64,000 bases of DNA from Oceanimonas doudoroffii (lineage in GTDB: Bacteria > Pseudomonadota > Gammaproteobacteria > Enterobacterales > Aeromonadaceae), in NCBI RefSeq assembly GCF_002242685.1, contig NZ_NBIM01000003.1, positions 62,001 through 126,000 of the forward strand, in the 5' to 3' direction. Position 1 is the stretch's first letter. Every line of letters begins with the position of its first letter. A program made the position numbers and the translations under genes. Under the pieces are notes generated by a model. That model saw only the letters and a program-made list of their open reading frames with translations, was not told the DNA's origin and ran no database searches. Below are positions 44,187-64,000 of the stretch, piece by piece.

Positions 44187-44201
44187 TGATAATAATTCTT
44201 G
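44187..44201. promoter_or_regulatory. Fur-like box upstream of the TonB receptor
   Basis: TGATAATAATTCTTG matches the Fur core TGATAATCATTATCA at 11 of 15 positions, with a perfect left half. It lies just upstream of the GAGG ribosome site and GTG start of the receptor. Confidence 0.5.
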
Positions 44202-44219
44202 TTTAATGAGGTAGACACA

Positions 44220-46172: not shown

Positions 46173-46179
46173 TGATTCA

Positions 46180-46199
46180 GGGGGCTTCGGCCCCCTTTT
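46180..46199 (+). terminator. Hairpin with short T tract after the TonB receptor
   Basis: GGGGGC (46180-46185) and GCCCCC (46190-46195) enclose a stable TTCG tetraloop and are followed by four Ts. It probably lowers transcription of the ABC genes relative to the receptor, since their ribosome site is only 20 bases further. Confidence 0.75.
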
Positions 46200-46224
46200 G
46201 CGTTTACAAGAACGAGAAAGAGCA

Positions 46225-47367
46225 ATGATTACACTTCTTATTCAAAATAACACTTTCCTGCGCCGCACCGTCGGCGCCTTATTGTTTCTGCTGTTCGCCC
46301 TACCGGCCTCGGCCGAGACCGTGACCGATATGGCCGGGCGCGAGGTCGAGCTACCCGAGCAAGTGACCGGCATCATTTTGGGGGAAGGCCGCTTTCTGCC
46401 GGCCCTGGCCATTCTCGAAGGGCAACGGCTTACCGACAGACTGGCGGGTATCATGCCCGACTTTGAACTGGCGGATCCGGCCGGTTATCGCCAGTATGCC
46501 GAGGCCTTTCCCAAGCTGAAAACCGTGCCCCGCCTTGGGCGCAGTACCGCTGACAGTTTCAGCATTGAACAAGCCCTGGGCCTGGGTGCCAACCTGGCGG
46601 TGTTCGGCATCGAAGGCCACGGCCCTTCTGCCCGAGACGAATCGCTGGTCGGCCGGCTGGAACGGGCCGGTGTGACCGTGTTGTTTATCGACTTTCGCCA
46701 GGATCCCCTGAGCCACACCCTGCAAAGCATGACGCTGCTGGGCCGAGCCCTCGACCGTGACGCCGAAGCCAACGCCTTTATCGACTTTTACCGGCAGGAA
46801 CTGGATCGCGTGCAGGCCGGACTGAACACCCTGAACCCCGAGGATGTGCCCAGCGTATTTCTGCACAGCCGGGTGGGCCTGCAGGACGCCTGCTGCGAAA
46901 CCATGACCAACGGCATGCTGGGCCGCTTTCTGACCCTGCTGAACGCCGACAACATCGCCACCGAGCGGGTGCCCGGAGTATCCGGCATCTACAACCTGGA
47001 ATACCTGCTGCTGGAGCAGCCGGATATCTACATTGCCACCGCCGTGGGATCGACCGATACCCTTGAAAGCCACCCGGGCATTATCGCCCTGGGGGCCGGC
47101 GTGGCGCCGGCGCAGGCCGAGGCCAGCCTGCGCCATGCCCTGAGCCATGCCGGGCTGGCCCAGTTGCAGGCGGTGCAGCAACACCGCGCCTTTGCCATCT
47201 GGCATCACTTTTACAATTCGCCCCTCAATGTGGTGGCGGTGCAGGCCTTTGCCCGCTGGCTTTATCCGGATACCTTTGCCGAGCTGGATCCGCAACACAC
47301 CCTGACCACGTTGTATCAGCGTTTTCAGCCGGTGCCCCTGAACGGCACCTACTGGATCGGAGGCTGA
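46225..47367 (+). CDS. Periplasmic substrate-binding protein of an iron-type ABC importer
   Basis: This 380-residue class III binding protein has a cleavable signal peptide (VGALLFLLFALPASAETVTD) with no lipobox, so it is soluble in the periplasm. The typical opening TVTDMAGREVELPEQVTGIILGEGR and a long central helix between two lobes are present. A DACCETMTNGMLGRF segment is distinctive. It delivers a siderophore-, haem- or metal-type ligand to the FecCD-like permease encoded next. The start at 46225 fits a GAGAAAGAG site; the frame extends upstream within the receptor gene but that is a shadow. Confidence 0.9.
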   Translation: MITLLIQNNTFLRRTVGALLFLLFALPASAETVTDMAGREVELPEQVTGIILGEGRFLPALAILEGQRLTDRLAGIMPDFELADPAGYRQYAEAFPKLKTVPRLGRSTADSFSIEQALGLGANLAVFGIEGHGPSARDESLVGRLERAGVTVLFIDFRQDPLSHTLQSMTLLGRALDRDAEANAFIDFYRQELDRVQAGLNTLNPEDVPSVFLHSRVGLQDACCETMTNGMLGRFLTLLNADNIATERVPGVSGIYNLEYLLLEQPDIYIATAVGSTDTLESHPGIIALGAGVAPAQAEASLRHALSHAGLAQLQAVQQHRAFAIWHHFYNSPLNVVAVQAFARWLYPDTFAELDPQHTLTTLYQRFQPVPLNGTYWIGG

Positions 47368-47368
47368 T

Positions 47369-48445
47369 ATGAACGACACCGTACTGGACGCCGGCAAGGC
47401 AACCGCCGCATCGGGACTGGCCCAGGCCTACCGCCGCTTTATCTGGCGCCGGCTGACCCTGCTGCTGGGGCTGGCCGTGGCACTGGCGATGTCGTTTGTC
47501 TGGGACATCGCCACCGGTCCGGCGCCCCTGGGGCCCATGGCGGTACTGAACGGCCTGCTGCACCCCGACAGCCTGGACGCCGGCACCCGGGTCATTATTC
47601 ACGAGGTGCGCCTGCCCTACGCCCTGATGGCGCTGGTGGTGGGGGCCAGCCTGGGGCTGGCCGGCGCCGAGATGCAGACCGCACTGAACAACCCCCTGGC
47701 CAGCCCTTACACCCTGGGAGTAGGCGCCGCCGCCACCCTGGGTGCCGCCGTGGCCATCGTGTTCAAGCTCAGCCTGCCCGGACTGGGCGCGGCCCTGACC
47801 CTGCCGCTGATGGCCTTTGTGTTTGCCGCCGGCGCCGCCCTGCTGATTTTGCTGCTGTCGCGCCGCTTTGGTGCCGGCGTGCATACCGTGGTGCTGTTTG
47901 GCATTGCGCTGCTGTTTGGCTTTAACGCCCTGGTGGGGCTGCTGCAGTTTGTGGCCGACTTTGATGCCCTGCAGCAAATCGTGTTCTGGACCATGGGCAG
48001 CCTGGCCCGGGCCGAGCTGCAGCAGGTGGCCGTGGTGGCCCTGGTGCTGACCTTTTGCCTGCCGTTTTCCCTGCGTCAGGCCTGGGCCATGACCACGCTG
48101 CGCAGCGGCGAGGAGCAGGCCCGCAGCCTGGGCATTCGCGTGGAGCGGCTGCGGTTGCTGGTGCTGCTGCGGGTCAGCCTGCTCACCGCCACCGCCATGG
48201 CCTTTGTCGGCGAAATCGGCTTTATCGGCCTGGTCGGCCCCCATATCGCCCGCCTGCTGCTGGGAGAAGATCATCGCCTGCTGCTGCCCGGCAGCGCCCT
48301 GGCCGGCGCCCTGCTGCTGTCATTGGCCTCCATTGCCAGCAAGACCCTGGTGCCGGGCATTCTGCTGCCGGTGGGCATGGTGACCGCCCTGGTGGGTATT
48401 CCGTTGTTTATCGCCCTTATCATTGGCCGCGGACGGGAGCAATAA
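47369..48445 (+). CDS. FecCD-type ABC transporter permease
   Basis: The 358-residue integral membrane protein has about ten membrane segments and FecCD/BtuC signatures: VRLPYALMALVVGASLGLAGAEMQ, NNPLASPYTLGVGAAATLGA, GEIGFIGLVGPHIARLLLGEDHR (the ATPase-contact loop) and PVGMVTALVGIPLFIALI near the end. It forms the channel of an iron-complex importer as a homodimer. It starts one base after the binding-protein stop and its own TAA directly abuts the ATPase start, so the three genes form one operon. Confidence 0.94.
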   Translation: MNDTVLDAGKATAASGLAQAYRRFIWRRLTLLLGLAVALAMSFVWDIATGPAPLGPMAVLNGLLHPDSLDAGTRVIIHEVRLPYALMALVVGASLGLAGAEMQTALNNPLASPYTLGVGAAATLGAAVAIVFKLSLPGLGAALTLPLMAFVFAAGAALLILLLSRRFGAGVHTVVLFGIALLFGFNALVGLLQFVADFDALQQIVFWTMGSLARAELQQVAVVALVLTFCLPFSLRQAWAMTTLRSGEEQARSLGIRVERLRLLVLLRVSLLTATAMAFVGEIGFIGLVGPHIARLLLGEDHRLLLPGSALAGALLLSLASIASKTLVPGILLPVGMVTALVGIPLFIALIIGRGREQ

Positions 48446-49240
48446 ATGACACTGCACATTGAGAACCTCAGGGTCGGCTACGCCCGCCGCCCGGTGCTGA
48501 ACGGCCTGAGTCCACGGCCGGTCGCCCCGGGCACCCTGGTGGGGGTGATCGGCCGTAATGGCGCCGGCAAGTCAACCCTGCTGAAGACCATTGCCGGACT
48601 GCTGCCGAGCGATGGCCGAGTGCTGTTCAACGGGGCGCCGCTGGACTTCCGCCGCCGTGCCCGCACGCTGGGCTATCTGCCCCAGAGCCTGCCTCAAGCC
48701 AGCTCGTTGCTCGCCTACGAGACCGTGTTCAGCGCCTGCCGGGCGGTGCACGGTGGTCTGGACAAGGCGCAGCTGGAGCAGAACATGGAGCGAGTATTTG
48801 ACCGGCTGGGGATTCGCGAGCTGGCCCTGCGCCGGCTGGATCAACTCTCCGGCGGCCAGCGCCAGATGATTGGCCTGGCCCAGGTGCTGGTTCGCCAACC
48901 CGAGATGCTGCTGCTGGACGAGCCCACCAGCGCCCTGGATCTGCACTGGCAGCTGAACGTGCTGCAATGCGTGCAGCAGTTCAGCCGCGAGCGGGGCACG
49001 CTGTCGCTGGTGGCCATTCACGACATCAACCTGGCGCTGCGTTTTTGCGACCAGCTCTGGGTACTGGGCGACGGCCGGCTGCTGGCGGAGGGGCCGGCCC
49101 GGGAAGTGCTGACCCCGGCGGTGCTGCGCGCCGCCTACGGCGTGGAAGGCCGAGTGGAAACCTGCTCCCGCGGCCTGCCCATCGTGCTGTGCGACCAGGC
49201 GCTACCTCATTCAACTCATCAAGGAGAACACCATGGCTGA
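48446..49240 (+). CDS. ATPase of an iron-type ABC importer
   Basis: The 264-residue FepC/FecE-like ATPase has Walker A GVIGRNGAGKSTLL, Q-loop LGYLPQSLPQ, signature LSGGQRQMIGLAQ, Walker B MLLLDEPTSALD and the switch His in VAIHDINLALR. It powers uptake through the permease encoded immediately upstream. The following DUF2218 gene overlaps its last 8 bases. Confidence 0.95.
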   Translation: MTLHIENLRVGYARRPVLNGLSPRPVAPGTLVGVIGRNGAGKSTLLKTIAGLLPSDGRVLFNGAPLDFRRRARTLGYLPQSLPQASSLLAYETVFSACRAVHGGLDKAQLEQNMERVFDRLGIRELALRRLDQLSGGQRQMIGLAQVLVRQPEMLLLDEPTSALDLHWQLNVLQCVQQFSRERGTLSLVAIHDINLALRFCDQLWVLGDGRLLAEGPAREVLTPAVLRAAYGVEGRVETCSRGLPIVLCDQALPHSTHQGEHHG

Positions 49241-52250: not shown

Positions 52251-54026
52251 ATGGCTAAAATGAAAGCAATCGAAGCGGCCGCTAAAATCCTGGAGCTGGA
52301 AGGTGTCACCAAAGCCTTTGGCGTTCCCGGCGCCGCCATCAACCCCTTCTACGCCGCGCTCAAGGGTCTCGGCTCCATCAGCCACGTACTGGCCCGCCAC
52401 GTTGAAGGCGCGTCTCACATGGCCGAAGGCTACACCCGTGCCAACCCGGGCAACATTGGTGTGTGTATCGGTACTTCCGGCCCTGCCGGCACCGACATGA
52501 TCACCGGCCTGTATTCCGCTTCCGCCGACTCCATTCCGATTCTGTGCATCACCGGCCAGGCGCCGCGTGCCCGTATGCACAAGGAAGACTTCCAGGCCGT
52601 AGACATCGAGTCCATCGCCAAGCCGGTTGCCAAGTGGGCCACCACCGTACTGGAGCCGGGCCAGGTTCCCGGTGTGTTCCAACAGGCCTTCCACATCATG
52701 CGCTCCGGTCGTCCCGGCCCCGTGCTGATCGACCTGCCGTTCGACGTGCAAATGGCCGAGATCGAGTTCGATCCGGAAGCCTACCAGCCGATGACTCCCT
52801 ACAAGCCGGCCGCGACCCGCATTCAGGTTGAAAAGGCCCTGACCATGCTGAACGCCGCCGACAAGCCGCTGCTGGTTTCCGGTGGTGGTGTTATCAACGC
52901 CGACGCTGCTGCCCTGCTGACCGAGTTCGCCGAAGTGCTGAACGTGCCGGTTATCCCGACCCTGATGGGCTGGGGCACCATTCCCGACGACCACGGCCTG
53001 ATGGCGGGTATGTGCGGTCTGCAGACCTCTCACCGCTACGGTAACGCCAACCTGCTGGCTTCCGACTTCGTACTGGGTGTAGGTAACCGTTGGGCCAACC
53101 GTCACACCGGTTCCGTAGAGGTTTACACCAAGGGTCGTAAGTTCGTTCACGTTGACATCGAACCCACTCAGATCGGTCGTGTATTCGGTCCGGACCTGGG
53201 CATCGTGTCCGACGCCAAAGCCGCTCTGGAACTGTTCGTTGAAGTCGCCAAAGAGTGGAAAGCGGCCGGTAAACTGAAAGACCGTGGCGCCTGGGTTGCC
53301 GAGTGTCAGGAGCGCAAGCGCACCCTGCAGCGCAAGACCCACTTCGACAACACTCCGGTTAAGCCGCAGCGTGTATACGAAGAAATGAACAAGGCCTTCG
53401 GCCGCGACACCACCTACGTGTCCACTATCGGTCTGTCCCAGATCGCTGCCGCCCAGTTCCTGCACGTGTACAAAGAGCGTAACTGGATCAACTGTGGTCA
53501 GGCTGGCCCTCTGGGTTGGACCATTCCGGCCGCCCTGGGCGTATGTGCCGCCGAGCCGGGCCGCAACGTGGTTGCCCTGTCCGGTGACTACGACTTCCAG
53601 TTCATGATCGAGGAGCTGGCCGTAGGTGCCCAGTTCAAACTGCCCTACATTCACGTGCTGGTGAACAACTCCTACCTGGGCCTGATCCGTCAGTCTCAGC
53701 GCGGCTTCGACATGGACTACTGCGTACAGCTGTCCTTTGAAAACATCAACGCGCCGGAGCTGGGCGAGTACGGTGTTGACCACAAGGCCGTGGTTGAAGG
53801 CCTGGGCTGTAAAGCTATCCGCGTATTCAAGCCGGAAGACATTGCTCCCGCCTTTGAAGAAGCCAAGAAGCTGATGGCCGAGCACTCCGTACCGGTAGTG
53901 GTTGAAGTGATTCTGGAGCGCGTCACCAACATCTCCATGGGTGTTGAAATCGACGCCGTCAACGAGTTCGAAGAGCTGGCCGAAAAGGGTGAAGACGCCC
54001 CCACCGCCATCTCTCTGCTGGACTGA
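52251..54026 (+). CDS. gcl: Glyoxylate carboligase
   Basis: Gcl joins two glyoxylate molecules to tartronate semialdehyde and CO2 using thiamine diphosphate. The 591-residue protein is close to E. coli Gcl along its whole length. As in E. coli, Val51 ([10 protein letters not shown]) stands where other family members have the catalytic Glu, a specific mark of this enzyme. Other blocks: [34 protein letters not shown], and the ThDP region [17 protein letters not shown]. It begins the gcl-hyi-glxR-glycerate kinase operon. Its codons (CGT, GGT, GTT preferred) point to high expression. Confidence 0.97.
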
Positions 54027-54037
54027 TTGATGACAGC

Positions 54038-54059
54038 GATGGGGCTCACGGGCCCCATC
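54038..54059. terminator. Hairpin between gcl and hyi
   Basis: GATGGGGC (54038-54045) pairs perfectly with GCCCCATC (54052-54059). With no T tract it more likely protects the gcl 3' end or sets the gcl:hyi ratio than ends transcription. Confidence 0.5.
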
Positions 54060-54094
54060 CTGACTTTGCCCCCAACTGAACAAAGGACATCGCA

Positions 54095-54877
54095 ATGCCG
54101 AAATTAGCTGCCAACCTGTCGATGCTGTTTACCGAAGTCGACTTCCTGGATCGTTTCGACGCCGCCGCCAAGGCCGGCTTCAAGGGTGTTGAATACCTGT
54201 TTCCCTATGATTTCGCCGCCGGCGACATCAAGGCAAGGCTTGAGGCCAACGGCCTGACCCAGGTACTGTTCAACCTGCCCGCCGGTGACTGGAACGGTGG
54301 CGAGCGCGGTATCGCCTGTCACCCGGATCGGGTTGAAGAATTCAAGGCCGGCGTCGACAAGGCCATCGAATACGCCAAGGTACTGGGCAACACCCAGGTG
54401 AACTGTCTGGCCGGTATTCAGCCTGCCGGTGTGGCTTACGAAGAAGCGGAAGCGACCTTCGTGGCCAACCTCAAGTACGCCGCCGACAAACTGAAGGATG
54501 CCGGCATCAAGCTGATCGCCGAGGCCATCAACACCCGCGACATTCCCGGCTTCTTCCTGAACAACACTCAGCAGGCGCTGGATATCATCGAGAAGGTGGG
54601 CTCCGACAATCTGGCCTTCCAGTATGACATCTACCACATGCAGATCATGGAAGGGGACATCATCCCGACCATGGAGAAGAACCTGAGCATTATCAACCAC
54701 ATTCAGCTGGCTGATAACCCGGGTCGTCACGAGCCGGGCACCGGCGAACTGAACTACCACAACATCTTCGCCTTCCTGGACAAGGTGGGCTACGACGGCT
54801 GGATCGGTGCCGAGTACAAGCCGGCCACCACCACCGAAGCCGGCCTGGGCTGGCTCAAGACCCACGGCGTGGTCTGA
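54095..54877 (+). CDS. hyi: Hydroxypyruvate isomerase
   Basis: Hyi interconverts tartronate semialdehyde and hydroxypyruvate. The 260-residue TIM-barrel protein of the xylose-isomerase-like family starts MPKLAANLSMLFTEVDFLDRF and contains GVEYLFPYDF, LIAEAINTRDIPGFFLN (catalytic Glu), YDIYHMQIMEGD and HIQLADNPGRHEPGTGEL, all typical of Hyi. It follows gcl by about 70 bases in the same direction, with an AAAGGACAT site. Confidence 0.96.
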   Translation: MPKLAANLSMLFTEVDFLDRFDAAAKAGFKGVEYLFPYDFAAGDIKARLEANGLTQVLFNLPAGDWNGGERGIACHPDRVEEFKAGVDKAIEYAKVLGNTQVNCLAGIQPAGVAYEEAEATFVANLKYAADKLKDAGIKLIAEAINTRDIPGFFLNNTQQALDIIEKVGSDNLAFQYDIYHMQIMEGDIIPTMEKNLSIINHIQLADNPGRHEPGTGELNYHNIFAFLDKVGYDGWIGAEYKPATTTEAGLGWLKTHGVV

Positions 54878-54946
54878 GGTTTTTCACTCAATTCGGTTTT
54901 CCACGAGGCCGGTACGCCGGCGTCTTCAGACAAAAGGATAACGAAC

Positions 54947-55834
54947 ATGAAAATTGGTTTTATTGGCACCGGTATCATGGGCAAGCCCATGGCTCAGAAC
55001 CTGCAAAAAGCCGGTCACACCCTGTACTTCTCCGAGCACTACAACAAAGCCCCGGAAGAACTGCTGGGTGACAACGGTATCGCCCTGGCCAACCCCAAGG
55101 CCGTGGCCGAAGCCGCCGACGTGATCATCACCATGGTACCCAACACCCCGCAGGTTGAGGCCGTACTGTTCGGTGAAAACGGCGCGGCCCTGGGCCTGTC
55201 TGCCGGCAAGGTAGTGGTGGACATGTCTTCCATCTCTCCCATCGCCACCAAGGAAATCGCCAAGCGTGTTAACGAAACCGGTGCCGACTTCCTGGATGCC
55301 CCGGTCTCCGGCGGTGAAGTAGGCGCCATCAATGCCACCCTGACCATCATGGTAGGCGGTGAACAGGCCGTGTTTGACAAGATCAAGCCGCTGTTCGACA
55401 TCATGGGCAAGAACATCACCCTGGTAGGCGGTAACGGTGACGGCCAGACCACCAAGGTGGCCAACCAGATCATCGTGGCCCTGAACATTGAAGCCGTTGC
55501 CGAAGCCCTGGTGTTTGCCTCCAAGGCAGGCGCCGATCCGGCCAAGGTACGTGAAGCCCTGATGGGTGGCTTCGCCTCTTCCAAGATCCTGGAAGTGCAC
55601 GGTGAGCGCATGGTAAAAGGCACCTTCGATCCGGGCTTCCGTATCGCCCTGCACCAGAAGGATCTGAACCTGGCCCTGAGCGGTGCCCGCGAGCTGGGCG
55701 TTTCCCTGCCCAACACCGCCGGCGCACAGGAGCTGTTCAACACCTGTAACGCCCTGGGCGGTGCCGGCTGGGATCACTCCGGCATGGTCAAGGCGCTGGA
55801 GCACCTGGCCAACCACAACATTCGGGGCGAGTAA
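54947..55834 (+). CDS. glxR: 2-hydroxy-3-oxopropionate (tartronate semialdehyde) reductase
   Basis: This 295-residue beta-hydroxyacid dehydrogenase reduces tartronate semialdehyde to glycerate. It has the nucleotide-binding GFIGTGIMGKPMAQNL, the substrate-binding DAPVSGGEVGAINATLTIMVGG and the catalytic Lys in TTKVANQIIV. Its place after gcl and hyi matches E. coli glxR. Codon choice is as in gcl. A 12-bp perfect hairpin follows, separating it from the glycerate kinase. Confidence 0.95.
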   Translation: MKIGFIGTGIMGKPMAQNLQKAGHTLYFSEHYNKAPEELLGDNGIALANPKAVAEAADVIITMVPNTPQVEAVLFGENGAALGLSAGKVVVDMSSISPIATKEIAKRVNETGADFLDAPVSGGEVGAINATLTIMVGGEQAVFDKIKPLFDIMGKNITLVGGNGDGQTTKVANQIIVALNIEAVAEALVFASKAGADPAKVREALMGGFASSKILEVHGERMVKGTFDPGFRIALHQKDLNLALSGARELGVSLPNTAGAQELFNTCNALGGAGWDHSGMVKALEHLANHNIRGE

Positions 55835-55842
55835 GTCCTGAA

Positions 55843-55878
55843 CCGAACGGCGGCGTTGAGGCTTCAGCCGCCGTTCGG
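55843..55878. terminator. Perfect 12-bp hairpin between glxR and the glycerate kinase
   Basis: CCGAACGGCGGC (55843-55854) pairs perfectly with GCCGCCGTTCGG (55867-55878). No T tract follows. It may partly terminate, making the kinase less expressed than the first three genes, or stabilise their mRNA. Confidence 0.6.
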
Positions 55879-56020
55879 GACACCTCGGGGCGAACGTCGG
55901 TGAAAAGATGACTTTCACTCAGGGGGCTTTGTGTTAGACACTGGTCGCCGGTCGTTCTGCCCCACCCCGTTTTGAATCAACAACAGCACCAAGACAGCCG
56001 TTTTTTCAGGAGTATTTGCA

Positions 56021-57289
56021 ATGGATATCCAACCCAAGGAGTTGTTACAGCAGTTATTCGACAGCGCCGTGGCCGCCGCCCTGCCCAAGGGTAACTTGGC
56101 CGAATACCTGCCCAAGGATACTCGTCAAAAAGCCGTTGTTATCGGTGCCGGCAAGGCCGCCGCCTCCATGGCCGCCGAGCTGGACGCCATCTGGGAAGGG
56201 GAACTGTCCGGCGTGGTGGTCACCCGCTACGACCACGGCGCCCCCTGTGAGCGCATTGAGGTGATTGAAGCCGCCCACCCGGTGCCGGATGATGCCGGTG
56301 AGCGCGTGGGCCGCCGCATTCTCGAGCTGGTGCAAGGCCTGGGTGAAGACGATCTGGTGATCTGCCTGTTGTCCGGCGGTGGTTCTTCCCTCCTGAGCCT
56401 GCCGGCCCCGGGCCTGACCCTGTCCGACAAGCAGGCCATCAACAAGGCCCTGCTCAAGTCCGGCGCCGCCATTGATGAAATGAACTGCGTGCGCAAGCAC
56501 CTGTCCGGCATCAAGGGTGGCCGCCTGGCCGCCGCCGCCTATCCGGCCCGCCTGATTGCCCTGGGTATCTCCGACGTGCCCGGCGACGAAGCCACCGTGA
56601 TCGCGTCCGGTCCGACCGTGGCGGATCCAACCACCTCCGCCCAGGCCCTGGCCATTCTCGACAGCTACGGCATCGAAGTGGGTGCCCACGTGCGTGCCTG
56701 GCTGGAAAGCCCCGAGTCCGAAACCGTCAAGCCCGGTGACGAGCGCCTGAGCAAGGCCGAGTTCCACATGATCGCCACCCCTCAGGATGCCCTGGACGCC
56801 GCCGCCCACCTGGCCCGCTCCAAGGGCCTGGCGCCGCTGGTGCTGGGTGACTGCATTGAGGGTGAGTCCCGGGAAGTGGCCAAGGTACACGCCGCCATCG
56901 CCAAGCAGATCCTCAAGTGCGGCCAGCCCGTACAGGCGCCCTGCGTGATCCTGTCCGGCGGTGAAACCACGGTCACCATCAAGGGCAACGGCCGGGGCGG
57001 CCGCAACAGCGAATTCATGCTCAGCCTGTTCAACGAGCTCAAGGGTCAGGCCGGCGTGTATGCCCTGGCCGCCGACACCGACGGCATTGACGGCGTGGAA
57101 GACAACGCCGGCGCCCTGATCACTCCCGAGCTGTTCGCACGAGCGGAAGCCGCCGGCCTGAAAGCCGAAGACTACCTGGCCAACAACGACAGCTACGGTT
57201 TCTTCTCCCAGCTGGAAGCCCTGGTGGAAACCGGTCCGACCCGCACCAACGTCAATGACTTCCGTGCCATTCTGGTGCTGCCGAAATAA
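56021..57289 (+). CDS. Glycerate 2-kinase (DUF4147/MOFRL type)
   Basis: The 422-residue kinase phosphorylates D-glycerate to 2-phosphoglycerate, feeding lower glycolysis. It has the TtuD/GckA two-part layout: the N-terminal DUF4147 domain (VVIGAGKAAASMAAEL, LSGGGSSLLSLPAPGL, NCVRKHLSGIKGGRLAAAAYP) and a C-terminal MOFRL domain (CVILSGGETTVTIKGNGRGGRNSEF, ALAADTDGIDG). This class differs from the GarK-type kinase that ends the same pathway in E. coli. It is last in the glyoxylate operon and is followed by a bidirectional terminator. TTCAGGAG precedes the ATG. Confidence 0.95.
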   Translation: MDIQPKELLQQLFDSAVAAALPKGNLAEYLPKDTRQKAVVIGAGKAAASMAAELDAIWEGELSGVVVTRYDHGAPCERIEVIEAAHPVPDDAGERVGRRILELVQGLGEDDLVICLLSGGGSSLLSLPAPGLTLSDKQAINKALLKSGAAIDEMNCVRKHLSGIKGGRLAAAAYPARLIALGISDVPGDEATVIASGPTVADPTTSAQALAILDSYGIEVGAHVRAWLESPESETVKPGDERLSKAEFHMIATPQDALDAAAHLARSKGLAPLVLGDCIEGESREVAKVHAAIAKQILKCGQPVQAPCVILSGGETTVTIKGNGRGGRNSEFMLSLFNELKGQAGVYALAADTDGIDGVEDNAGALITPELFARAEAAGLKAEDYLANNDSYGFFSQLEALVETGPTRTNVNDFRAILVLPK

Positions 57290-57359: not shown

Positions 57360-58856
57360 TTACAGCTTGATCCAGGTAGCCTTCAGCTCGGTGTACTTGT
57401 CAAAGGCGTGCAGGGATTTGTCTCGGCCATTACCCGACTGCTTGAAGCCCCCAAAAGGTGCCGTCATGTCGCCGCCATCGTACTGGTTGATCCAGACGCT
57501 ACCGGCCCGCAAGGCCTTGCCGGCCAGGTGCGCTTTGGACAAGTCCCGGGTCCATACCGCGGCCGCCAGGCCATAAATGGTGTCATTGGCGATGGCAATG
57601 GCGTCCTCAAAACTTTCAAAGGTCATCACCGACAACACAGGGCCAAATATTTCCTCCCGGGCAATACGCATGTCACTGGTGACCTGATCAAACAGGGTGG
57701 GTTCAACAAAGAAACCGCCGCTTTCCTGTCGCACCTGCCGGCCCCCCACCACCAGCCTGGCGCCTTCTTCCTGGGCAGAGCGAATGTAACCCAGCACCGT
57801 CTCGGTTTGTGCCTGATCCACCAGGGCGCCGACCCGGGTTTCCAGTTCCAGAGGATGTCCGGGCTGCCAGTATTCCCGCAGGGCGCTCGCCACTTTCTCA
57901 ACAAACACATCCTTGATGGGGGCCTCCACCAGCAGACGGGAGCCGGCGGTGCAGACTTCTCCCTGGTTGAACGCGATGGCCGCCGCCGCCGAGCGGGCCG
58001 CTTCATCCAGATCCGGCGCATCGGCAAAGACGATGTTCGGGCTCTTGCCTCCCGCCTCCAGCCAGACCCGTTTCATGTTCGACTCGCCCGCATAGATCAT
58101 CAGCTGTTTGGCAATCCGGCTGGAGCCGGTAAAGACCAGGGTATCCACGTCCATATGCAGGGCCAGAGCCTTGCCCACTGTGTGGCCGTAACCGGGCAGC
58201 ACATTCAGCACCCCGGCGGGCAAGCCCGCTTCCAGGGCCAGGGCCGCCAGGCGAATGGCTGTGAGCGGGGATTTTTCCGATGGTTTGAGGATCACCGAGT
58301 TGCCGGTCGCCAGGGCCGGGCCCAGCTTCCAGCAGGCCATCATCATCGGGAAGTTCCAGGGCACAATGGCCGCCACCACGCCCACTGGCTCACGGGTGAC
58401 CAGTCCCAGTTCGTCATGCGCGGTGGCAGCCACTTCATCGTAGATTTTGTCGATAGCCTCGGCAGACCAGCGAATGGCCCGCTCGGTGGCCGGCACATCC
58501 ACCGCAAGGGAATCCCTGATGGGCTTGCCCATATCCAGGGTTTCCAGCAGCGCCAGCTCCTCGGCATGTTCGGCGATCAAATCGGCAAAGCGCAGCATCA
58601 CCGCTTTGCGCCGGGTCGGCGCCAGCCGCGACCATATGCCCGACTCAAAGGTCTGCCGGGCACTGCTGGCTGCCAGCTCGGCATCCTCCTGCTCACAGCT
58701 CGCCACCCGCGCCAGCAAGCGCTGATCGATGGGGCTGATACAGTCAAAGGTCTGACCCTGCAGCGCCTCCCGGTACTCGCCATTGATAAAGCAGCGACCC
58801 TCTATGCATAGCTGCCGGGCTCGTGTTTCCCAATCCGTTATGGTGTTCTGGCTCAT
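57360..58856 (-). CDS. PuuC/KauB-type aldehyde dehydrogenase
   Basis: This 498-residue NAD(P)-dependent aldehyde dehydrogenase has VVAAIVPWNFPMMMACWKLGPAL, the catalytic Glu in LEAGGKSPNIVFADAPDLD, the catalytic Cys in NQGEVCTAGSRL and the C-terminal NQYDGGDMTAPFGGFKQSGNGRDKSLHAFDKYTELK signature (read in parts) of PuuC/KauB enzymes, which oxidise aminoaldehydes from polyamines or guanidinobutyraldehyde. Its start overlaps the stop of the upstream amidotransferase by 4 bases, so the two are translationally coupled. Beside the P450/glutamine-synthetase genes, it likely oxidises an aminoaldehyde or gamma-glutamyl-aminoaldehyde. Confidence 0.9.
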   Translation of the reverse strand: MSQNTITDWETRARQLCIEGRCFINGEYREALQGQTFDCISPIDQRLLARVASCEQEDAELAASSARQTFESGIWSRLAPTRRKAVMLRFADLIAEHAEELALLETLDMGKPIRDSLAVDVPATERAIRWSAEAIDKIYDEVAATAHDELGLVTREPVGVVAAIVPWNFPMMMACWKLGPALATGNSVILKPSEKSPLTAIRLAALALEAGLPAGVLNVLPGYGHTVGKALALHMDVDTLVFTGSSRIAKQLMIYAGESNMKRVWLEAGGKSPNIVFADAPDLDEAARSAAAAIAFNQGEVCTAGSRLLVEAPIKDVFVEKVASALREYWQPGHPLELETRVGALVDQAQTETVLGYIRSAQEEGARLVVGGRQVRQESGGFFVEPTLFDQVTSDMRIAREEIFGPVLSVMTFESFEDAIAIANDTIYGLAAAVWTRDLSKAHLAGKALRAGSVWINQYDGGDMTAPFGGFKQSGNGRDKSLHAFDKYTELKATWIKL

Positions 58857-59611
58857 TTTGCTTCCCTTGTATCTGCCTGTTGCTTCACTGATAGCTGCGC
58901 ATTACCCCGCTCTGTCACGACACAGGGCTCGCCCAGCGAGTGTAAAAAGTCCTGCAGCATCCGTTTTAAATTGGCCCGGTTTTCCGGCTGCCGCAGCTCG
59001 ATTTCCCGGCGCAGTCGTTCGGGCAGATCCCCCACCTCTTGCAGGAAGCTGCGCCCTTCCTCAGTCTGGCGCCAGCTTGCCGTCCAGGTATCGAACATGG
59101 CTGGCGTAATTTCCGGATGGAACTGGACGCCCATGACCCGCTCCTGGCGAAACACCTGCTGGGCCAGCTCGGTACGCCCCAGCAGCGCGGCCGTGGGCGG
59201 CGCCGTGAAGGCATCGAAATGGAAATTTAGCCAAGGCCCCGCATGAACCCAATCATCGGTCGGCGTCTCGATATGGCACCAGCCAATTTCCGGTGTGTGG
59301 TTGCGCGCCACCCCGCCCCCCAGCACCCGGGCCAGCAACTGGCTGCCAAAGCAGATCCCCAGTACGGGGACGCCCCTGTCGATCACCTGCCGCAGCCAGG
59401 TGATTTCTTTTTGCAACCAGGGCAGGCTGTCGTCATAAGCCGCATCAATACTGCCCATCACAAACAGCAGCTCCAGGGTCTCCGGATCCGGCAATGCTCC
59501 CTCGATACAGACCACATCCAGGGTGATGCCCAGCTCCAGCAAGGCGTCCGGCAGGCTGCCGACAAGATCCGTCTTCGCATGAATCAGCGCAACGGCACGG
59601 CGAATAGTCAT
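58853..59611 (-). CDS. Class I glutamine amidotransferase-like hydrolase (copy 1)
   Basis: The 252-residue stand-alone GATase-1 domain has the nucleophile Cys87 in VLGICFGSQLLARVLGG, and the catalytic His-Glu in GVQFHPEITP. It belongs to the GMP-synthase-like branch (PF00117), not the PuuD peptidase-C26 branch, though a similar role, hydrolysing a gamma-glutamyl amide, is plausible beside a PuuC-like dehydrogenase. Aniline-degradation clusters contain such proteins (AtdA2/TdnT) with a glutamine-synthetase homologue. I start at the Met at 59609-59611, 8 bases after AAGGAT. A promoter with a variant of the shared operator lies upstream. Confidence 0.85.
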   Translation of the reverse strand: MTIRRAVALIHAKTDLVGSLPDALLELGITLDVVCIEGALPDPETLELLFVMGSIDAAYDDSLPWLQKEITWLRQVIDRGVPVLGICFGSQLLARVLGGGVARNHTPEIGWCHIETPTDDWVHAGPWLNFHFDAFTAPPTAALLGRTELAQQVFRQERVMGVQFHPEITPAMFDTWTASWRQTEEGRSFLQEVGDLPERLRREIELRQPENRANLKRMLQDFLHSLGEPCVVTERGNAQLSVKQQADTREAK

Positions 59612-59641
59612 GGCAATCATCCTTATCAACCAAAATCATTC

Positions 59642-59655
59642 TAAACCATATCTTA
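59642..59655. promoter_or_regulatory. Variant operator at the amidotransferase/ALDH promoter
   Basis: TAAACCATATCTTA matches the core AAAACCATATTTTA of the two strong sites at 12 of 14 positions. It overlaps the minus-strand -10 (TATGGT). This suggests one regulator for both divergent operons. Confidence 0.5.
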
Positions 59656-59767
59656 AGTCGTCGAGTTTTCCAATCATCCCGATCAATGCACGTCTTTATT
59701 CCGTTATCACCCCGGTAATAAATACCCGGATAAACCACAAAAACGATCGTTATCACTAAAATCGCGC

Positions 59768-59796
59768 TTGAAAAATATAAAACCATATTTTAACTT
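59768..59796 (+). promoter_or_regulatory. P450 operon promoter with embedded operator
   Basis: TTGAAA (-35, 59768-59773) is 17 bases from TAACTT (-10, 59791-59796). The spacer carries TATAAAACCATATTTTA (59776-59792), a TAAAA-CCATA-TTTTA dyad. The block 59768-59792 is identical at 24 of 25 positions to 63676-63700 before the glutamine-synthetase-like gene. Confidence 0.7.
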
Positions 59797-59918
59797 TATT
59801 GTCACTTGGGCCGCGCCATGCACCGCCCTGTCATACCCATGATTTGTGACGATGGGTCACAAACGAACACGGCACGCCTGAACGGAAGATCAAGGCCGCA
59901 TATATACGGAGGTAGTCC

Positions 59919-61139
59919 ATGCTTTCCTGTCCCCAGAGCACCCTCGAGAATATCCCTTACCTGGATGTCGCCGATCCCGCCTTTTCCATGCGCTCGCCCG
60001 AAGTGATCGCGGCCAGGGAAAAAAGCTGGTGCGCCCGCACCCCCTACGGCATTGCCGTGTTGCGCTACGATGAGGTTAACCACCTGCTGCGCGACCAGCG
60101 CCTGCGTCAGGGCAGCTACGCCTGGCCGGCCCACAACAAGGCCACCGGCAGTTTTTCCGACTGGTGGATGCGTATGCTGTTGAGCCGTGAAGGCGCCGAC
60201 CATTCCCGTCTGCGCCGTCTCGCCAATCCGGCGTTTGCGCCCAAGCTGGTTAAAAAACTGACGCCGGTTTTTCAGGAAATCGCCAGCGAGCTGATCGATG
60301 AGTTTATCGAGAATGAGCAGTGCGACTTTGTCAGCCAGTTTGCCGAGCCCTATGCGACCCAGGTGATCTGCACCCTGCTGGGCCTGCCCCGCTCCGAGTG
60401 GAAGGCGCTCGCCACCCTGGCCAGCGACATGGGCCTGGCCCTGGGAGTGACCTTCAAGCAGGATGAAGCCGTGATCAATGCGGCCACCGACAAGCTGTTC
60501 CAGTATGCCGAGCAGGCCGTCGCCAATCTGAAGCAGCAGGGACTGGGCGACGACTTCCTCAGCAACCTGATCCGGGCCAACCAGGAAAATGAAGAAGCCC
60601 TGAGCAATACCGAGCTGTACGACATGATAGTGCTGGCCATTTTCGGCGGCATCGATACCACCCGTAACCAGCTCTCCCTGGCCATGGACCTGTTTATCCA
60701 ACACCCGGAGCAATGGAAATTGCTGGGCAAGCAGCCGGAGCTGGCTCGGGCCGCGGTGGAAGAAGTCATGCGGGTTCGCCCCACCGTCACCTGGGTCACC
60801 CGTGAAGCACTGGAAGACTTCACCTTTCAGGGGCTGGACATCAAAAAAGGCACCACGGTTCATCTGTTCAGCCAGTCGGCCGGCACGGATCCCAGGGCCA
60901 TGTCCAACCCGGAATTCGATATTACCGCCAAGCGGTGCCCGCACTTTGGCTTTGGCGCCGGGGCCCACCACTGTATCGGCCACTTTATTGCCCGCGGTGA
61001 TATGACCGAGGCCCTGGCCCTGCTGGCCCAGCGACTGCACCAGCCCCATTACAACGGGGAGGCGGCCTGGCTGCCCGACAGCGGCAACACAGGCGCCATC
61101 TCCATGCCCATTGCCTTTGCGCCCATGGAGCTCCCATGA
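59919..61139 (+). CDS. Cytochrome P450, flavodoxin-linked type
   Basis: The 406-residue soluble bacterial P450 has the I-helix oxygen-activation motif FGGIDTTRNQ, the K-helix ExxR in EEVMR and the haem loop FGFGAGAHHCIG with the ligand Cys352. P450s insert one oxygen atom from O2, here with electrons supplied by the coupled reductase and flavodoxin encoded next (stop/start overlap ATGA). The substrate is unknown; the surrounding amidotransferase, glutamine-synthetase-like and aminoaldehyde dehydrogenase genes point to an amine or its gamma-glutamyl derivative. GGAGG precedes the ATG. I do not recognise a named CYP family with certainty. Confidence 0.93.
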   Translation: MLSCPQSTLENIPYLDVADPAFSMRSPEVIAAREKSWCARTPYGIAVLRYDEVNHLLRDQRLRQGSYAWPAHNKATGSFSDWWMRMLLSREGADHSRLRRLANPAFAPKLVKKLTPVFQEIASELIDEFIENEQCDFVSQFAEPYATQVICTLLGLPRSEWKALATLASDMGLALGVTFKQDEAVINAATDKLFQYAEQAVANLKQQGLGDDFLSNLIRANQENEEALSNTELYDMIVLAIFGGIDTTRNQLSLAMDLFIQHPEQWKLLGKQPELARAAVEEVMRVRPTVTWVTREALEDFTFQGLDIKKGTTVHLFSQSAGTDPRAMSNPEFDITAKRCPHFGFGAGAHHCIGHFIARGDMTEALALLAQRLHQPHYNGEAAWLPDSGNTGAISMPIAFAPMELP

Positions 61140-62416
61140 AGACGCCGACCATCGCCATTGTAGGCAGCGGTCCGTCCGGCTGCTACCTCGCCCAGGCCCT
61201 GCGCAAGGCGTGGCCGCTGGCGGAGATCACCCTGCTGGACCGCATGCCGGTTCCCTATGGCCTGGTGCGCTACGGAGTGGCGCCCGACCATCCTGGAACC
61301 AAGAACGTCATTCGCCAGTTCGAGCGGCTGTTCGAACGGGACAACATAGGCTTTGCCGGCAATATCGAGATCGGCCGGGATATCTCCCTGGATACCCTGC
61401 GTGACACCTTTGACATAGTGGCGCTGGCCACCGGCCTGCACGGCGATCGCCCGCTGGATATTCCGGGCGCCGAGCAGGCCCGAATTTACGGAGCAGGCCG
61501 CCTGACCCGGCTGCTGAACGATCACCCTGATGAGCAGGATTTCCACCCGCAACTGGGTAAATCCACGGTGATCGTCGGCAATGGCAACGTGGCCATCGAT
61601 GTGCTGCGCCTGCTGGCCAAGTCTGCCGAGGAGTTCGACAATTCGGAAATTACCGACGAGGTGCTGAGCCGCCTGCAGGCTACCCCGCTCAGACAAATAC
61701 ATATCGTCGGCCGCTCACCGGCCCCACAGGCCAAGTTCGATACCGTGATGCTGCGCGAGCTGGCCGGTTTGTGCCGGGTCAGCTACAGGGTTCACGATTT
61801 ACCACCTGCCGATAACGATGACGACAAGGCCGTGGCCGCCAAGCTGGACGCCCTGCGCGACCTGCAGGCCAGGGAGCAGGCCGAGCTCGAGATCCATTTT
61901 CACTTTGGCTGGCAGCCCGAGTCTCTGACCGCCACCGAGGGACAACAGTGTTTCCACTTCACCCGAGCCGGGCGTGAAACGCAGAAACTGGAGCTCACCA
62001 CCGACAGTGTGATCACCGCCATCGGCTTCACCCAGCGACCGGACAGCGCCTTTTGCAAACAGGGCCTGAGCCATGCCGGGGCAGATCCCGAGGCCGGCCA
62101 TCTGGCCCCGGGGCTCTATTGCACCGGCTGGTTCAAGCGGGGCCCCAGGGGCACCATTCCGGAAAACCGGGCCGATGCCAAGACGGTGGCCGGTCTGATA
62201 CTGGCCCAGACCGACCTCATGACCACAGGCAAGCCCGGCTTTGCCGCCATGCCTGAGTCCGTGATAGCCCAGTCTGTTGATTATGCCGGCTGGAAACGCA
62301 TCGACGCGGCGGAAGTGACCACGGCACCCGCCGGAAGAATACGCAAAAAAATTAGGGACACCGCCGAAATGCTGCGGATTGTGAATGATATCCATCAGGG
62401 AGAGCCTCAATCATGA
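61136..62416 (+). CDS. Adrenodoxin/ferredoxin reductase-like flavoprotein (FprA/XplB type)
   Basis: The 426-residue protein has an FAD site TIAIVGSGPSGCYLAQAL, MPVPYGLVRYGVAPDHP, the NADPH motif STVIVGNGNVAIDVLRLL and the late block YCTGWFKRGPRGTIPENRADA, the layout of adrenodoxin reductase-type enzymes such as FprA and XplB. It should pass electrons from NADPH to the flavodoxin encoded next. Both its start and stop overlap neighbours by 4 bases (ATGA), so P450, reductase and flavodoxin are made from one coupled message. Confidence 0.93.
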   Translation: MKTPTIAIVGSGPSGCYLAQALRKAWPLAEITLLDRMPVPYGLVRYGVAPDHPGTKNVIRQFERLFERDNIGFAGNIEIGRDISLDTLRDTFDIVALATGLHGDRPLDIPGAEQARIYGAGRLTRLLNDHPDEQDFHPQLGKSTVIVGNGNVAIDVLRLLAKSAEEFDNSEITDEVLSRLQATPLRQIHIVGRSPAPQAKFDTVMLRELAGLCRVSYRVHDLPPADNDDDKAVAAKLDALRDLQAREQAELEIHFHFGWQPESLTATEGQQCFHFTRAGRETQKLELTTDSVITAIGFTQRPDSAFCKQGLSHAGADPEAGHLAPGLYCTGWFKRGPRGTIPENRADAKTVAGLILAQTDLMTTGKPGFAAMPESVIAQSVDYAGWKRIDAAEVTTAPAGRIRKKIRDTAEMLRIVNDIHQGEPQS

Positions 62417-62853
62417 AAATCATAACCTTGTTTGGTACCGAAACCGGTAATGCGGAGATGGTAGCCGACGATATTGTCGAGGCGCTGTCTTCCGACTTTG
62501 ACGCCAGCGCCCAGGACATGGCCGACTTCGATATCGGCGAGACCCGGGAGGGCGATATCCTGCTGCTGGTCTGTTCGACCTATGGCGACGGCGAGCTGCC
62601 CAACTCCGCACAGCCTCTGTACGAGCAACTGACCAACAACCAGCCGAATCTGAGCCATCTGCGCTTTGCCACCTTTGGCCTGGGTGACAGCTTCTATGCC
62701 ACCTTCAACCAGGGCAGTCAGATCATGGCGGATCAGTTCCTTGCCTTGGGCGCCCGGGAAATGGCCGAGCGGGGCCGGCACGATGCCTCCAGCGGCGAGC
62801 TGCCCGGTGATGTAGCCCTGGCTTGGCTCAAGACGGTGGTCAGCGCCTTTTAA
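62413..62853 (+). CDS. Flavodoxin (MioC-like), electron donor to the P450
   Basis: The 146-residue protein has the FMN phosphate-binding loop LFGTETGNAEMVAD, the second FMN contact region VCSTYGDGELP and the third, FGLGDSFYATFNQGS. It resembles short-chain flavodoxins of the MioC type. Placed between an adrenodoxin-reductase-like gene and a P450 in a coupled operon, it is the likely redox partner of the P450, replacing the usual ferredoxin, as flavodoxins do for XplA and P450cin. Confidence 0.92.
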   Translation: MKIITLFGTETGNAEMVADDIVEALSSDFDASAQDMADFDIGETREGDILLLVCSTYGDGELPNSAQPLYEQLTNNQPNLSHLRFATFGLGDSFYATFNQGSQIMADQFLALGAREMAERGRHDASSGELPGDVALAWLKTVVSAF

Positions 62854-62903
62854 GCGCTGCGCTTTGAGTGACCTTGATGTCAAATGAGTGAACAGGAATG
62901 TCC

Positions 62904-63662
62904 ATGGAAAACATCACTCCCCGCACCCTGCGTTTGTGCGTGATTGAAAATGGCCTGGTACCGGCAGAGCTGCGAAACCGCTTTGCCAGTTATCCGGCCA
63001 TGATTAAACACTGGCTGTCTCCTTCCCTGCCGGAAGCCGTATTCAGCCAGGTGTCCCCGGTGAGTGGAGAGCCTCTGCCGGATCCCGCCACCTTTGACGG
63101 CTACATACTGACCGGCTCCAAACACAGCTGCTATGAGGGCACCCTCTGGATGGAAGACCTGAAACGCTTCCTGCAGCAACTACGCGAGCAGCGCCGCCCG
63201 GTGTTTGGAATCTGCTTTGGTCACCAGATCATGGCGGATGCCTACGGGGGCCGCACCCGCCGGGCCGAGCAGGGATGGGGCGTGGGCGCCCAGCCCTACC
63301 AGTATGCCGACTCGGTACCTGCCGCCGGTGCCGCCTTTGTATTTCACCAAGATCAGGTGGTGGATCTGCCGCCAGGGGCCGAGGTGCTGGGGGGCTCATC
63401 CCACTGCCGTCAAGGTGTGCTGGGCTATCCGTTTCCGGCACTCTCGGTGCAGTATCACCCCGAGTTCCCCCCCAGCTATGTGGAAGCGCTTGCCCGCCGC
63501 TACTCGGGCAATCTGCTACCCCGGAAGGTGGCCGATACCGCCCTGAGCAGCCTGGAGCGAATAGGGGTCGACAACACCCAGATCGCCGCCTGGGTCGCGA
63601 GCTTTTTTCGAGAACACGGGGCGCCTGCCGTGATTGAGTCGCAGCAAGAAAACCGGGCTTAA
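62904..63662 (+). CDS. Class I glutamine amidotransferase-like hydrolase (copy 2)
   Basis: This 252-residue GATase-1 domain has the nucleophile Cys104 in VFGICFGHQIMADAYGG and the His-Glu pair in SVQYHPEFPP. It is clearly diverged from the copy at 58853-59611 although equal in length. It follows the flavodoxin by 50 bases in the same direction and precedes the glutamine-synthetase-like gene. Removal or transfer of a gamma-glutamyl group from an amine intermediate is the role I infer. Two Met codons are possible; 62904 has the better distance from AGGA than 62898. Confidence 0.86.
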   Translation: MENITPRTLRLCVIENGLVPAELRNRFASYPAMIKHWLSPSLPEAVFSQVSPVSGEPLPDPATFDGYILTGSKHSCYEGTLWMEDLKRFLQQLREQRRPVFGICFGHQIMADAYGGRTRRAEQGWGVGAQPYQYADSVPAAGAAFVFHQDQVVDLPPGAEVLGGSSHCRQGVLGYPFPALSVQYHPEFPPSYVEALARRYSGNLLPRKVADTALSSLERIGVDNTQIAAWVASFFREHGAPAVIESQQENRA

Positions 63663-63675
63663 CCTTATTTTTACA

Positions 63676-63704
63676 TTGAAAACTATAAAACCATATTTTA
63701 TATT
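63676..63704 (+). promoter_or_regulatory. Promoter with embedded operator before the glutamine-synthetase-like gene
   Basis: TTGAAA (63676-63681), a 17-base spacer and TATATT (63699-63704, five of six) form a strong sigma-70 promoter. The spacer and -10 hold TATAAAACCATATTTTA (63684-63700), the same 17-mer as before the P450 gene; here the dyad extends to TATAAAA-CCATA-TTTTATA. Confidence 0.75.
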
Positions 63705-63785
63705 TAATTTTATCCTGAAACGGCGACCACCGGATCAGAGACTGCACCCATTGCATAGCGCCACAGCGCGACAAGGAGAGTTAAA

Positions 63786-64000
63786 ATGACCGCATTAGAT
63801 CTGCACAAAGAGCACAACACCTGCTCCGCCCAGGCCCAGGAGCTGGCGGTCCGGGTAAAGGATTCCGGCGTTGAATACCTCTACTATCAGGTAGTAACCC
63901 TGTCGGGCCGGATTATCGCCAAGGTGGTGCCGGCCAAGCACCTGCTGCGCAACCTGGAAAAAGGCATTCAGTTCCACCGCACCGCCATCGTGGATCTGCA
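63786..64000 (+). CDS. Glutamine synthetase-like gamma-glutamyl-amide ligase, N-terminal part (cut by window end)
   Basis: The first 71 residues are present (ending at the window edge), with VEYLYYQVVTLSGRIIAKVVPAKHLLRNL, the beta-Grasp N-terminal domain of type III/PuuA-like glutamine synthetases. Such enzymes often ligate glutamate to amines rather than to ammonia. CAAGGAGAG precedes the ATG. It has its own promoter with the operator shared with the P450 operon. The catalytic domain, and hence the substrate class, lies outside the window. Confidence 0.85.
   Translation, partial: MTALDLHKEHNTCSAQAQELAVRVKDSGVEYLYYQVVTLSGRIIAKVVPAKHLLRNLEKGIQFHRTAIVDL

Follow-up and report, generated by a model that had tools for sequence, protein, structure and literature searches.

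A conserved gene module in Oceanimonas doudoroffii with a cytochrome P450 and a glutamine-synthetase-fold ligase, a candidate system for the breakdown of small secondary amines

We analyzed a run of eleven genes, among them a cytochrome P450 and a glutamine synthetase (GS) homologue, at the end of a 64,000-nucleotide stretch of Oceanimonas doudoroffii DNA (hereafter the window; positions 62001-126000 of contig NZ_NBIM01000003.1, C3, in a source genome of 3.83 Mb). The run extends from a PuuC-like aldehyde dehydrogenase (ALDH) through a major facilitator superfamily (MFS) carrier, and genes were called from open frames together with Pfam and NCBIfam matches. On balance, we interpret it as a catabolic module, induced by its substrate, for a small secondary amine that is probably cyclic (pyrrolidine or piperidine class), and the P450 would act first. 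An earlier note on this DNA had proposed one regulated locus for amine oxidation, and the gene content, which combines the ligase, the P450, a PuuC-like dehydrogenase and candidate deglutamylases, supports that proposal. The substrate, the order of steps, the binding and ligand of the regulator and the division of roles between two glutamine amidotransferases (GATases) are what we infer from the genes.

In the pathway envisaged, an XplB-like reductase and a flavodoxin would feed the P450, which would hydroxylate the carbon next to the nitrogen of the free amine, and the resulting carbinolamine would open to an omega-aminoaldehyde. The GS-fold ligase would then add glutamate to the primary amine of this aldehyde and block its re-closure to the cyclic imine; in the Puu pathway, too, glutamylation keeps an aminoaldehyde from closing in this way. 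The PuuC-like dehydrogenase would oxidize the aldehyde, and a GATase would remove the glutamate to give gamma-aminobutyrate (GABA) or 5-aminovalerate for GabT/GabD; the other GATase may serve to clear unwanted gamma-glutamyl amides. A repressor of FadR type, akin to PipR and XplR, would occupy operators before three transcription units and be released by the amine or an intermediate.

A gap of about 307 bases is the origin of two divergent units. The leftward unit, on the minus strand, consists of GATase A (58853..59611; Pfam GATase; an alternative upstream TTG would place the start at 59629) and the ALDH (57360..58856; 498 aa; open frame and Pfam Aldedh). The rightward unit, on the plus strand, consists of the P450 (59919..61139; 406 aa; Pfam p450), an adrenodoxin-reductase-like flavoprotein (61136..62416), the flavodoxin (62413..62853) and GATase B (62898..63662; Pfam GATase, 64 bits), and both GATases are class-I enzymes and candidate gamma-glutamyl hydrolases. 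Four-base overlaps join P450 to reductase and reductase to flavodoxin, in agreement with the coupled message that the earlier note had described. The putative gamma-glutamyl-amine ligase of 458 aa follows on the plus strand (63786-65162, C3 125786-127162; Pfam Gln-synt_C); its first 215 bases (63786..64000) are inside the window, and the remainder is complete on the contig. The locus had been ended at 64000, but the gene run continues for about 5.3 kb, to the MFS gene. In window numbering carried past that end, an SBP_bac_3 amino-acid-binding protein (65159-65869), whose gene start overlaps the ligase stop, is followed by a FadR-type regulator with GntR and FCD domains (near 66050-66790), a Cache protein, presumably a sensor (67003-67755), and the MFS carrier (68107-69300), all assigned by Pfam and NCBIfam. 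A PADLOC search of the Cache protein returned no family.

For comparison with other genomes, 22 loci with a P450 at least 45% identical to that of O. doudoroffii were gathered by scanning contigs, searching plasmids and sampling genomes, a set which is neither exhaustive nor random, and module parts were scored within 10 kb of the P450 at E 1e-10. The plasmid search gave 870 records with a P450 match, from which seven P450 loci were taken (H1, H2, H3, H5, H7, H8 and H9; H10, with the same identity as H9, was left out). Co-occurrence in other genomes is evident: a ligase homologue is present in 16 of the 22 loci and in none of five controls with distant P450s (25-30%). The FCD regulator was found in 13 of the 22, the SBP_bac_3 protein in 11, the Cache protein in 10, and the reductase with a separate flavodoxin in seven; plasmid pGKT2 of Gordonia sp. 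KTR9 has both of the latter, though there the flavodoxin is a fused domain of XplA. Leaving the transporter aside, the complete set of ten parts is present in seven loci, namely those of O. doudoroffii, Pseudomonas sp. WN033 (where the contig ends inside the ALDH), P. boanensis, three congeners (G775, G779 and G787) and Bisbaumannia pacifica, with an MFS carrier in three and an amino-acid permease in four. Identities in the other full modules are 77-83% for the ligase, 71-78% for the binding protein and 54-56% for the reductase. At 1e-60 the P450 was detected in 3/398 genomes of a phylum sample, 3/369 of a class sample and 1/23 of a genus sample (own genome counted) and in 4/18 of the genus of P. 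boanensis (itself included), and the pGKT2 P450 was detected at 1e-80 in 2/396 genomes of the phylum of a Streptomyces. The P450 is rare in these genome samples, an accessory gene and not a core gene.

The full modules also share a candidate control element. The sequence TATAAAACCATATTTTA occurs exactly at 59776-59792 and 63684-63700, with a mean of 0.00 in 100 shuffles, and three putative operator copies were recognized: a degenerate one, CTAAACCATATCTTA, at 59641-59655 before GATase A (three mismatches), and exact copies of TAAAACCATATTTTA at 59778-59792, after TTGAAA and before the P450 unit, and at 63686-63700, in a promoter-like site TTGAAA-17-TATATT before the ligase, where inverted repeat arms occupy 63681-63690 and 63696-63705. 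The supposition of a single operator for the locus gives way to two exact copies and one degenerate copy. The promoter-like site before the ligase scores 10/12; since the region holds three such sites versus 2.4 in shuffles, which is no excess, the promoter scan alone proves nothing. At two mismatches or fewer, TAAAACCATATTTTA was found in 7/7 full modules (mean 0.00 in 30 shuffles per locus), with two copies here, two in Bisbaumannia and three each in WN033, P. boanensis, G775, G787 and G779, so that five pseudomonads and one halomonad have both the module and its operator. In six loci one copy each lies, in matching positions, before GATase A, before the P450 and before the ligase: five relatives have a two-mismatch copy at the place equivalent to that before GATase A, and six relatives have a copy with at most one mismatch before the P450. 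The Bisbaumannia copies precede the P450 and the MFS gene. TTGAAA precedes the P450 and ligase copies in every case printed, and locus G383 has a three-mismatch site before its ALDH. A relaxed pattern run over the whole genome matched the two exact sites and, on another contig, one site with two mismatches; because the reversed-pattern control also matched one, there is no sign of a second regulon site. The FCD protein is the presumed binder of these operators, as judged from its constant neighbourhood; this GntR-type regulator near the P450 gene is 45% identical to the FCD protein of pGKT2, and PipR is likewise a FadR-like GntR protein (PMC2018728, in the part available).

The binding protein encoded after the ligase lacks a hydrophobic leader in the ten loci checked, where the top 11-residue hydropathy in the first 40 residues is 1.1 to 1.65, a judgment made by hydropathy. 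Its sequence retains one Arg and one Asp aligned with the amino-acid-ligand positions of solved relatives, which we take to be ligand-binding residues. An AlphaFold model of the P. boanensis protein from a four-row alignment reached a mean pLDDT of 78 (other models, 55-68), and its best structural matches were ancestral arginine-binding proteins at a TM score of about 0.7, with a dehydratase precursor among the matches. It would thus appear to be a cytosolic amino-acid-binding protein and the strangest part of the cluster; we can guess that it binds gamma-glutamyl compounds, and an enzyme role is possible.

The ligase does not look like an ammonia-assimilating enzyme, because both ammonium-site acids are replaced and a true GlnA is encoded elsewhere (C3 169432; 692 bits vs a cut-off of 429). 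At the positions that we take to be ammonium-site Asp50 and Glu327, in presumed standard numbering, alignment gave His and Phe in 10/10 cluster-type enzymes, including those of pGKT2, Streptomyces clavuligerus and Nitriliruptor, and Asp and Glu in the GlnA of O. doudoroffii; Ruegeria and Paracoccus relatives have Trp at both (the residue table excludes L042, and the row of L041 is without its N-terminal part). This finding bears on the reading of the GS homologue as fixing ammonia released by a P450 pathway, which the authors of PMC9477822, in the portion consulted, adopted for GS beside PipA-like P450s. With the acids replaced, GlnA present elsewhere and two hydrolase-type GATases adjoining the ligase, we regard ordinary nitrogen assimilation as very improbable here, and the earlier view that the ligase is something other than an ordinary glutamine synthetase is supported. 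The ligase is also far from PuuA (198 bits against the model, cut-off 650); its best solved relative is 9qur, named glutamate-methylamine ligase, and the next is 7cql, named type III glutamate-ammonia ligase. Separately, four loci (L025, L026, L036 and L038) have two adjacent GS homologues beside the P450, with Trp at both ammonium-site positions in the two checked.

The P450 has intact haem-loop (FGAGAHHCIG), ExxR and I-helix (GGIDTT) motifs. Its closest named relative is that of Zobellella aerophila (93%), and it is 55% identical to the P450 beside xplA/xplB on the RDX plasmid pGKT2, a kinship by which we tentatively class it as CYP151-type. The reductase is 44% identical to XplB of Gordonia sp. 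KTR9, and the flavodoxin, the inferred electron carrier to the P450, is 45% identical to the N-terminal flavodoxin of XplA and matches NCBIfam flavodoxin models below cut-off. The notion that this reductase-flavodoxin pair is specific to amine clusters was ruled out, as the pair also lies beside ring-hydroxylating oxygenase genes, ALDHs and other P450s. On a Streptomyces plasmid (L034 10060-15123), a 45% relative of the P450 lies between ectB/ectA and an ectoine synthase gene, with a ferredoxin and a reductase. CYP151 members are listed for gamma- and alphaproteobacteria, two each, with function not given in the sections at hand (PMC7998510, PMC8197338). According to the excerpted text of PMC9477822, the CYP151-type MorA, with a reductase and ferredoxin, oxidizes morpholine itself, and pipA of M. 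smegmatis is induced on piperidine.

Since the morpholine oxygenase acts on the free amine, we place the P450 step first, and the order given in the earlier note, glutamylation and then P450, becomes doubtful. That order is the one of the Ipu isopropylamine pathway (Pseudomonas sp. KIE171, Arthrobacter aurescens TC1). Applied to this locus, it would have a primary alkylamine such as isopropylamine gamma-glutamylated at the start; hydroxylation of the resulting amide by the P450, release of the product by a GATase and the action of dehydrogenases would follow. Its precedent, as given in part of PMC6776027, comes from A. aurescens TC1, where two plasmid clusters carry the IpuC ligase together with a multicomponent P450, a GATase and dehydrogenases, and the locus studied here likewise has a GS-fold ligase, a P450 with its partners and a GATase in one cluster; the name of 9qur also suits a primary amine. 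The Ipu route, however, passes via an amino alcohol and needs an alcohol dehydrogenase (PMC6776027, same portion), and none was found among the eleven genes, which is a weak test as one may lie elsewhere in the genome. This absence favours P450 first and glutamylation second as an argument, not as proof. Moreover, both sequence identity and gene neighbours ally the P450 with the pGKT2 system, for whose relatives free amines are the published substrates, and an extension of one module into GabD/GabT, described below, fits a C4/C5 omega-amino acid better than alaninol. We consider the Ipu order a possible but doubtful alternative.

The end product of the preferred P450-first route is likely GABA-like, GABA or 5-aminovalerate, because the module of one pseudomonad runs on into gabD and gabT. 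In that locus, G775, the order is ALDH, 10 bases, GabD (957 bits, cut-off 828), GabT (823, cut-off 713) and an omega-aminotransferase, and in G787 and G779 the same aminotransferase family follows the ALDH. The Nitriliruptor locus (G1017) has ferredoxin partners and a class-III aminotransferase near its P450, which is below every cut-off, with GABA transaminase only its third-best model; a GABA-transaminase-like gene lies elsewhere in the O. doudoroffii genome (568 bits, below cut-off). The ALDH, with intact motifs LEAGGKS and FNQGEVC, is a candidate PuuC-like gamma-glutamyl-aminoaldehyde or aminoaldehyde dehydrogenase, and its homologues are 73-77% identical in 5/6 other full modules. Two distinct GATases were expected from the earlier reading and were found, with 32% identity over 167 residues; GATase A has intact GICFGSQ and VQFHPE motifs and 55-65% homologues in six other full modules, and GATase B has intact GICFGHQ and VQYHPE. 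The GabD/GabT neighbours in one relative also speak against a scheme in which the P450 N-dealkylates an acyclic secondary or tertiary amine and the ligase takes the released primary amine. Its alpha-hydroxylation chemistry would be identical and the methylamine ligase is again the best solved match; no N-methylglutamate or one-carbon gene was found among the eleven genes, and we hold this scheme to be unlikely.

Several observations weigh against the pathway as we propose it. In six of the 22 P450 loci no ligase lies within 10 kb; two of these are short contigs, and in two others a ligase is located 18-21 kb away. The ligase thus does not accompany this P450 family in every case. The operator at two mismatches or fewer was not found in seven more distant P450 loci scanned. 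The best NCBIfam model of the ALDH is PuuC, at 712 bits and below the cut-off of 850, and the sixth other full module, that of the halomonad Bisbaumannia, carries an unrelated ALDH (28%) resembling succinate-semialdehyde dehydrogenase. The gabD/gabT genes adjoin only one of six full modules with a known ALDH-side flank (the WN033 contig ends inside the ALDH and gives none), and that one is not the module described here. Finally, a P450 belongs to a CYP family at more than about 40% identity to a member, and the CYP151 assignment is a putative one, made through the 55% identity to the pGKT2 P450, which reportedly bears the name Cyp151C.

Plasmid pGKT2 carries genes for the FCD regulator, the Cache protein, the P450, the ligase, XplB and XplA one after another, and the ligase homologue, about 70 residues short at its C-terminus, forms a single reading frame with XplB (L024 13319-15760). 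Identities with the corresponding proteins of O. doudoroffii are 45% for the regulator, 32% for the Cache protein, 55% for the P450, 57% for the ligase, 44% for the reductase and 45% for the flavodoxin; the differences are the cut and fused ligase and the fusion of the flavodoxin to a different P450, XplA. On the DN22 plasmid (L047 7388-9894), xplB follows genes for an amino-acid permease with 61% identity to that of P. boanensis and for a dehydrogenase that shares 52% identity with a dehydrogenase of the Nitriliruptor locus. These surroundings of XplB look like remnants of amine clusters. A Klebsiella plasmid (L053 6986-9955) encodes a separate XplB-like reductase, a flavodoxin and a P450 43% identical to the P450 domain of XplA, an unfused relative of XplA/XplB. 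In trees built from 15 reductases and 14 flavodoxins, the flavodoxin of XplA is placed with those of the Klebsiella and R. oxybenzonivorans plasmids (support 99/98), and holding it with the cluster flavodoxins was rejected (p-AU 0.0017). Descent of the whole XplA/XplB pair from the cluster was rejected on this ground. XplB is apart from the Klebsiella and R. oxybenzonivorans reductases in the best tree, and grouping it with these (p 0.26) or with the cluster reductases (p 0.23) was in neither case rejected, so an origin of the reductase from the cluster rests on the neighbours and the fusion, not on the tree. A mixed origin of XplA/XplB is possible from these comparisons. More tentatively, and with rather low confidence, we can picture a P450-first pathway for cyclic amines in which the leaderless protein, a transporter binding protein relocated to the cytosol in the service of metabolism, carries or senses the gamma-glutamyl intermediate there, and from such a cluster the RDX reductase XplB was recruited, fused to a cut-short ligase and joined to an XplA from another P450 system. 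That the O. doudoroffii locus itself serves a nitramine or other xenobiotic, as its 44-45% identities to XplB and the XplA flavodoxin might suggest, is scarcely credible, for flavodoxin and P450 are separate genes here, the P450 is only 25% identical to XplA, and the P450 of XplA is closer, at 43%, to the unfused one of the Klebsiella plasmid.

Comparison with known systems reduces the novelty that the earlier note had claimed in stating that the combination could not be named. The Ipu pathway has such steps in the order proposed there (PMC6776027, in part), and CYP151-type P450s with a GS neighbour are already in print (PMC9477822, PMC10516948, in the passages available). From the same Ipu excerpt, the shared elements are the gamma-glutamyl ligase, multicomponent P450, GATase and dehydrogenases; the differences are the ferredoxin and ferredoxin reductase there, and here a step order that is probably reversed and no alcohol dehydrogenase. 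The mycobacterial PipR/PipA and MorABC secondary-amine systems (CYP151) share, as far as the excerpts describe them, the putative P450 type through the pGKT2 link, the FadR-like GntR regulator and the GS homologue beside the P450. The morpholine system uses a ferredoxin and its reductase in place of the XplB-like reductase and flavodoxin, and the two GATases, PuuC-like ALDH, leaderless binding protein and operator set present here are unmentioned in those excerpts. The Puu/Pau putrescine pathway shares the ligase, a GATase-fold hydrolase, GabT/GabD and, with a match below cut-off here, perhaps its PuuC-type ALDH (PMC10606097, partial text), and differs in that its flavin adenine dinucleotide (FAD) amine oxidase PuuB is absent from the module genes, which have a P450 instead, and in that the ligase is far from PuuA; the O. 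doudoroffii genome also encodes, elsewhere, a PuuC above cut-off. Aniline dioxygenase clusters share a gamma-glutamylanilide synthase and a GATase-like hydrolase (PMC11335346, partial text) and use a Rieske dioxygenase where the module has a P450; no Rieske oxygenase was found among the eleven genes. Within the searchable openly licensed papers of PubMed Central (PMC), we recognized no description of the eleven-gene module. Judged by these papers, the new features are the conservation of the module as a complete unit, the operators that go with it, the hint of a GABA-like product, the binding protein without a leader and the relationship to XplB.

Left of the module, genes named from translations as glyoxylate carboligase, hydroxypyruvate isomerase, tartronate semialdehyde reductase and glycerate kinase-like lie in a row (52251-57289). 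We weighed these gcl, hyi, glxR and ttuD-like genes as possible lower steps of morpholine breakdown through glycolate and set them aside because no homologues lie near the P450 in other loci: gcl was absent within 10 kb of the P450 in 21 other loci, and hyi, glxR and ttuD-like homologues were found near none in two scans of 20 and 8 loci. Among the loci of the same two scans, nspC and carboxynorspermidine synthase neighbours occur in the O. doudoroffii locus only and are not module parts. Further left (44199-49240), translations indicate a TonB-receptor-like frame followed by iron-siderophore-type ABC transporter frames for binding protein, permease and ATPase.

If the proposed reading is true, the module would supply the complete genes, including those of regulation and an operator, for degrading cyclic amines, a class of chemicals in common industrial use. 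It would place this breakdown in culturable pseudomonads and a halomonad, whereas the experimentally tested P450 systems of such kind are mycobacterial, and would explain the GS homologue beside these P450s, read in print as nitrogen assimilation (both PMC9477822, in the portion consulted). It would also suggest, in a form open to test, where part of the explosive-degrading XplA/XplB pair came from: the reductase of the pair lies in what may be a remnant of such a cluster on pGKT2.

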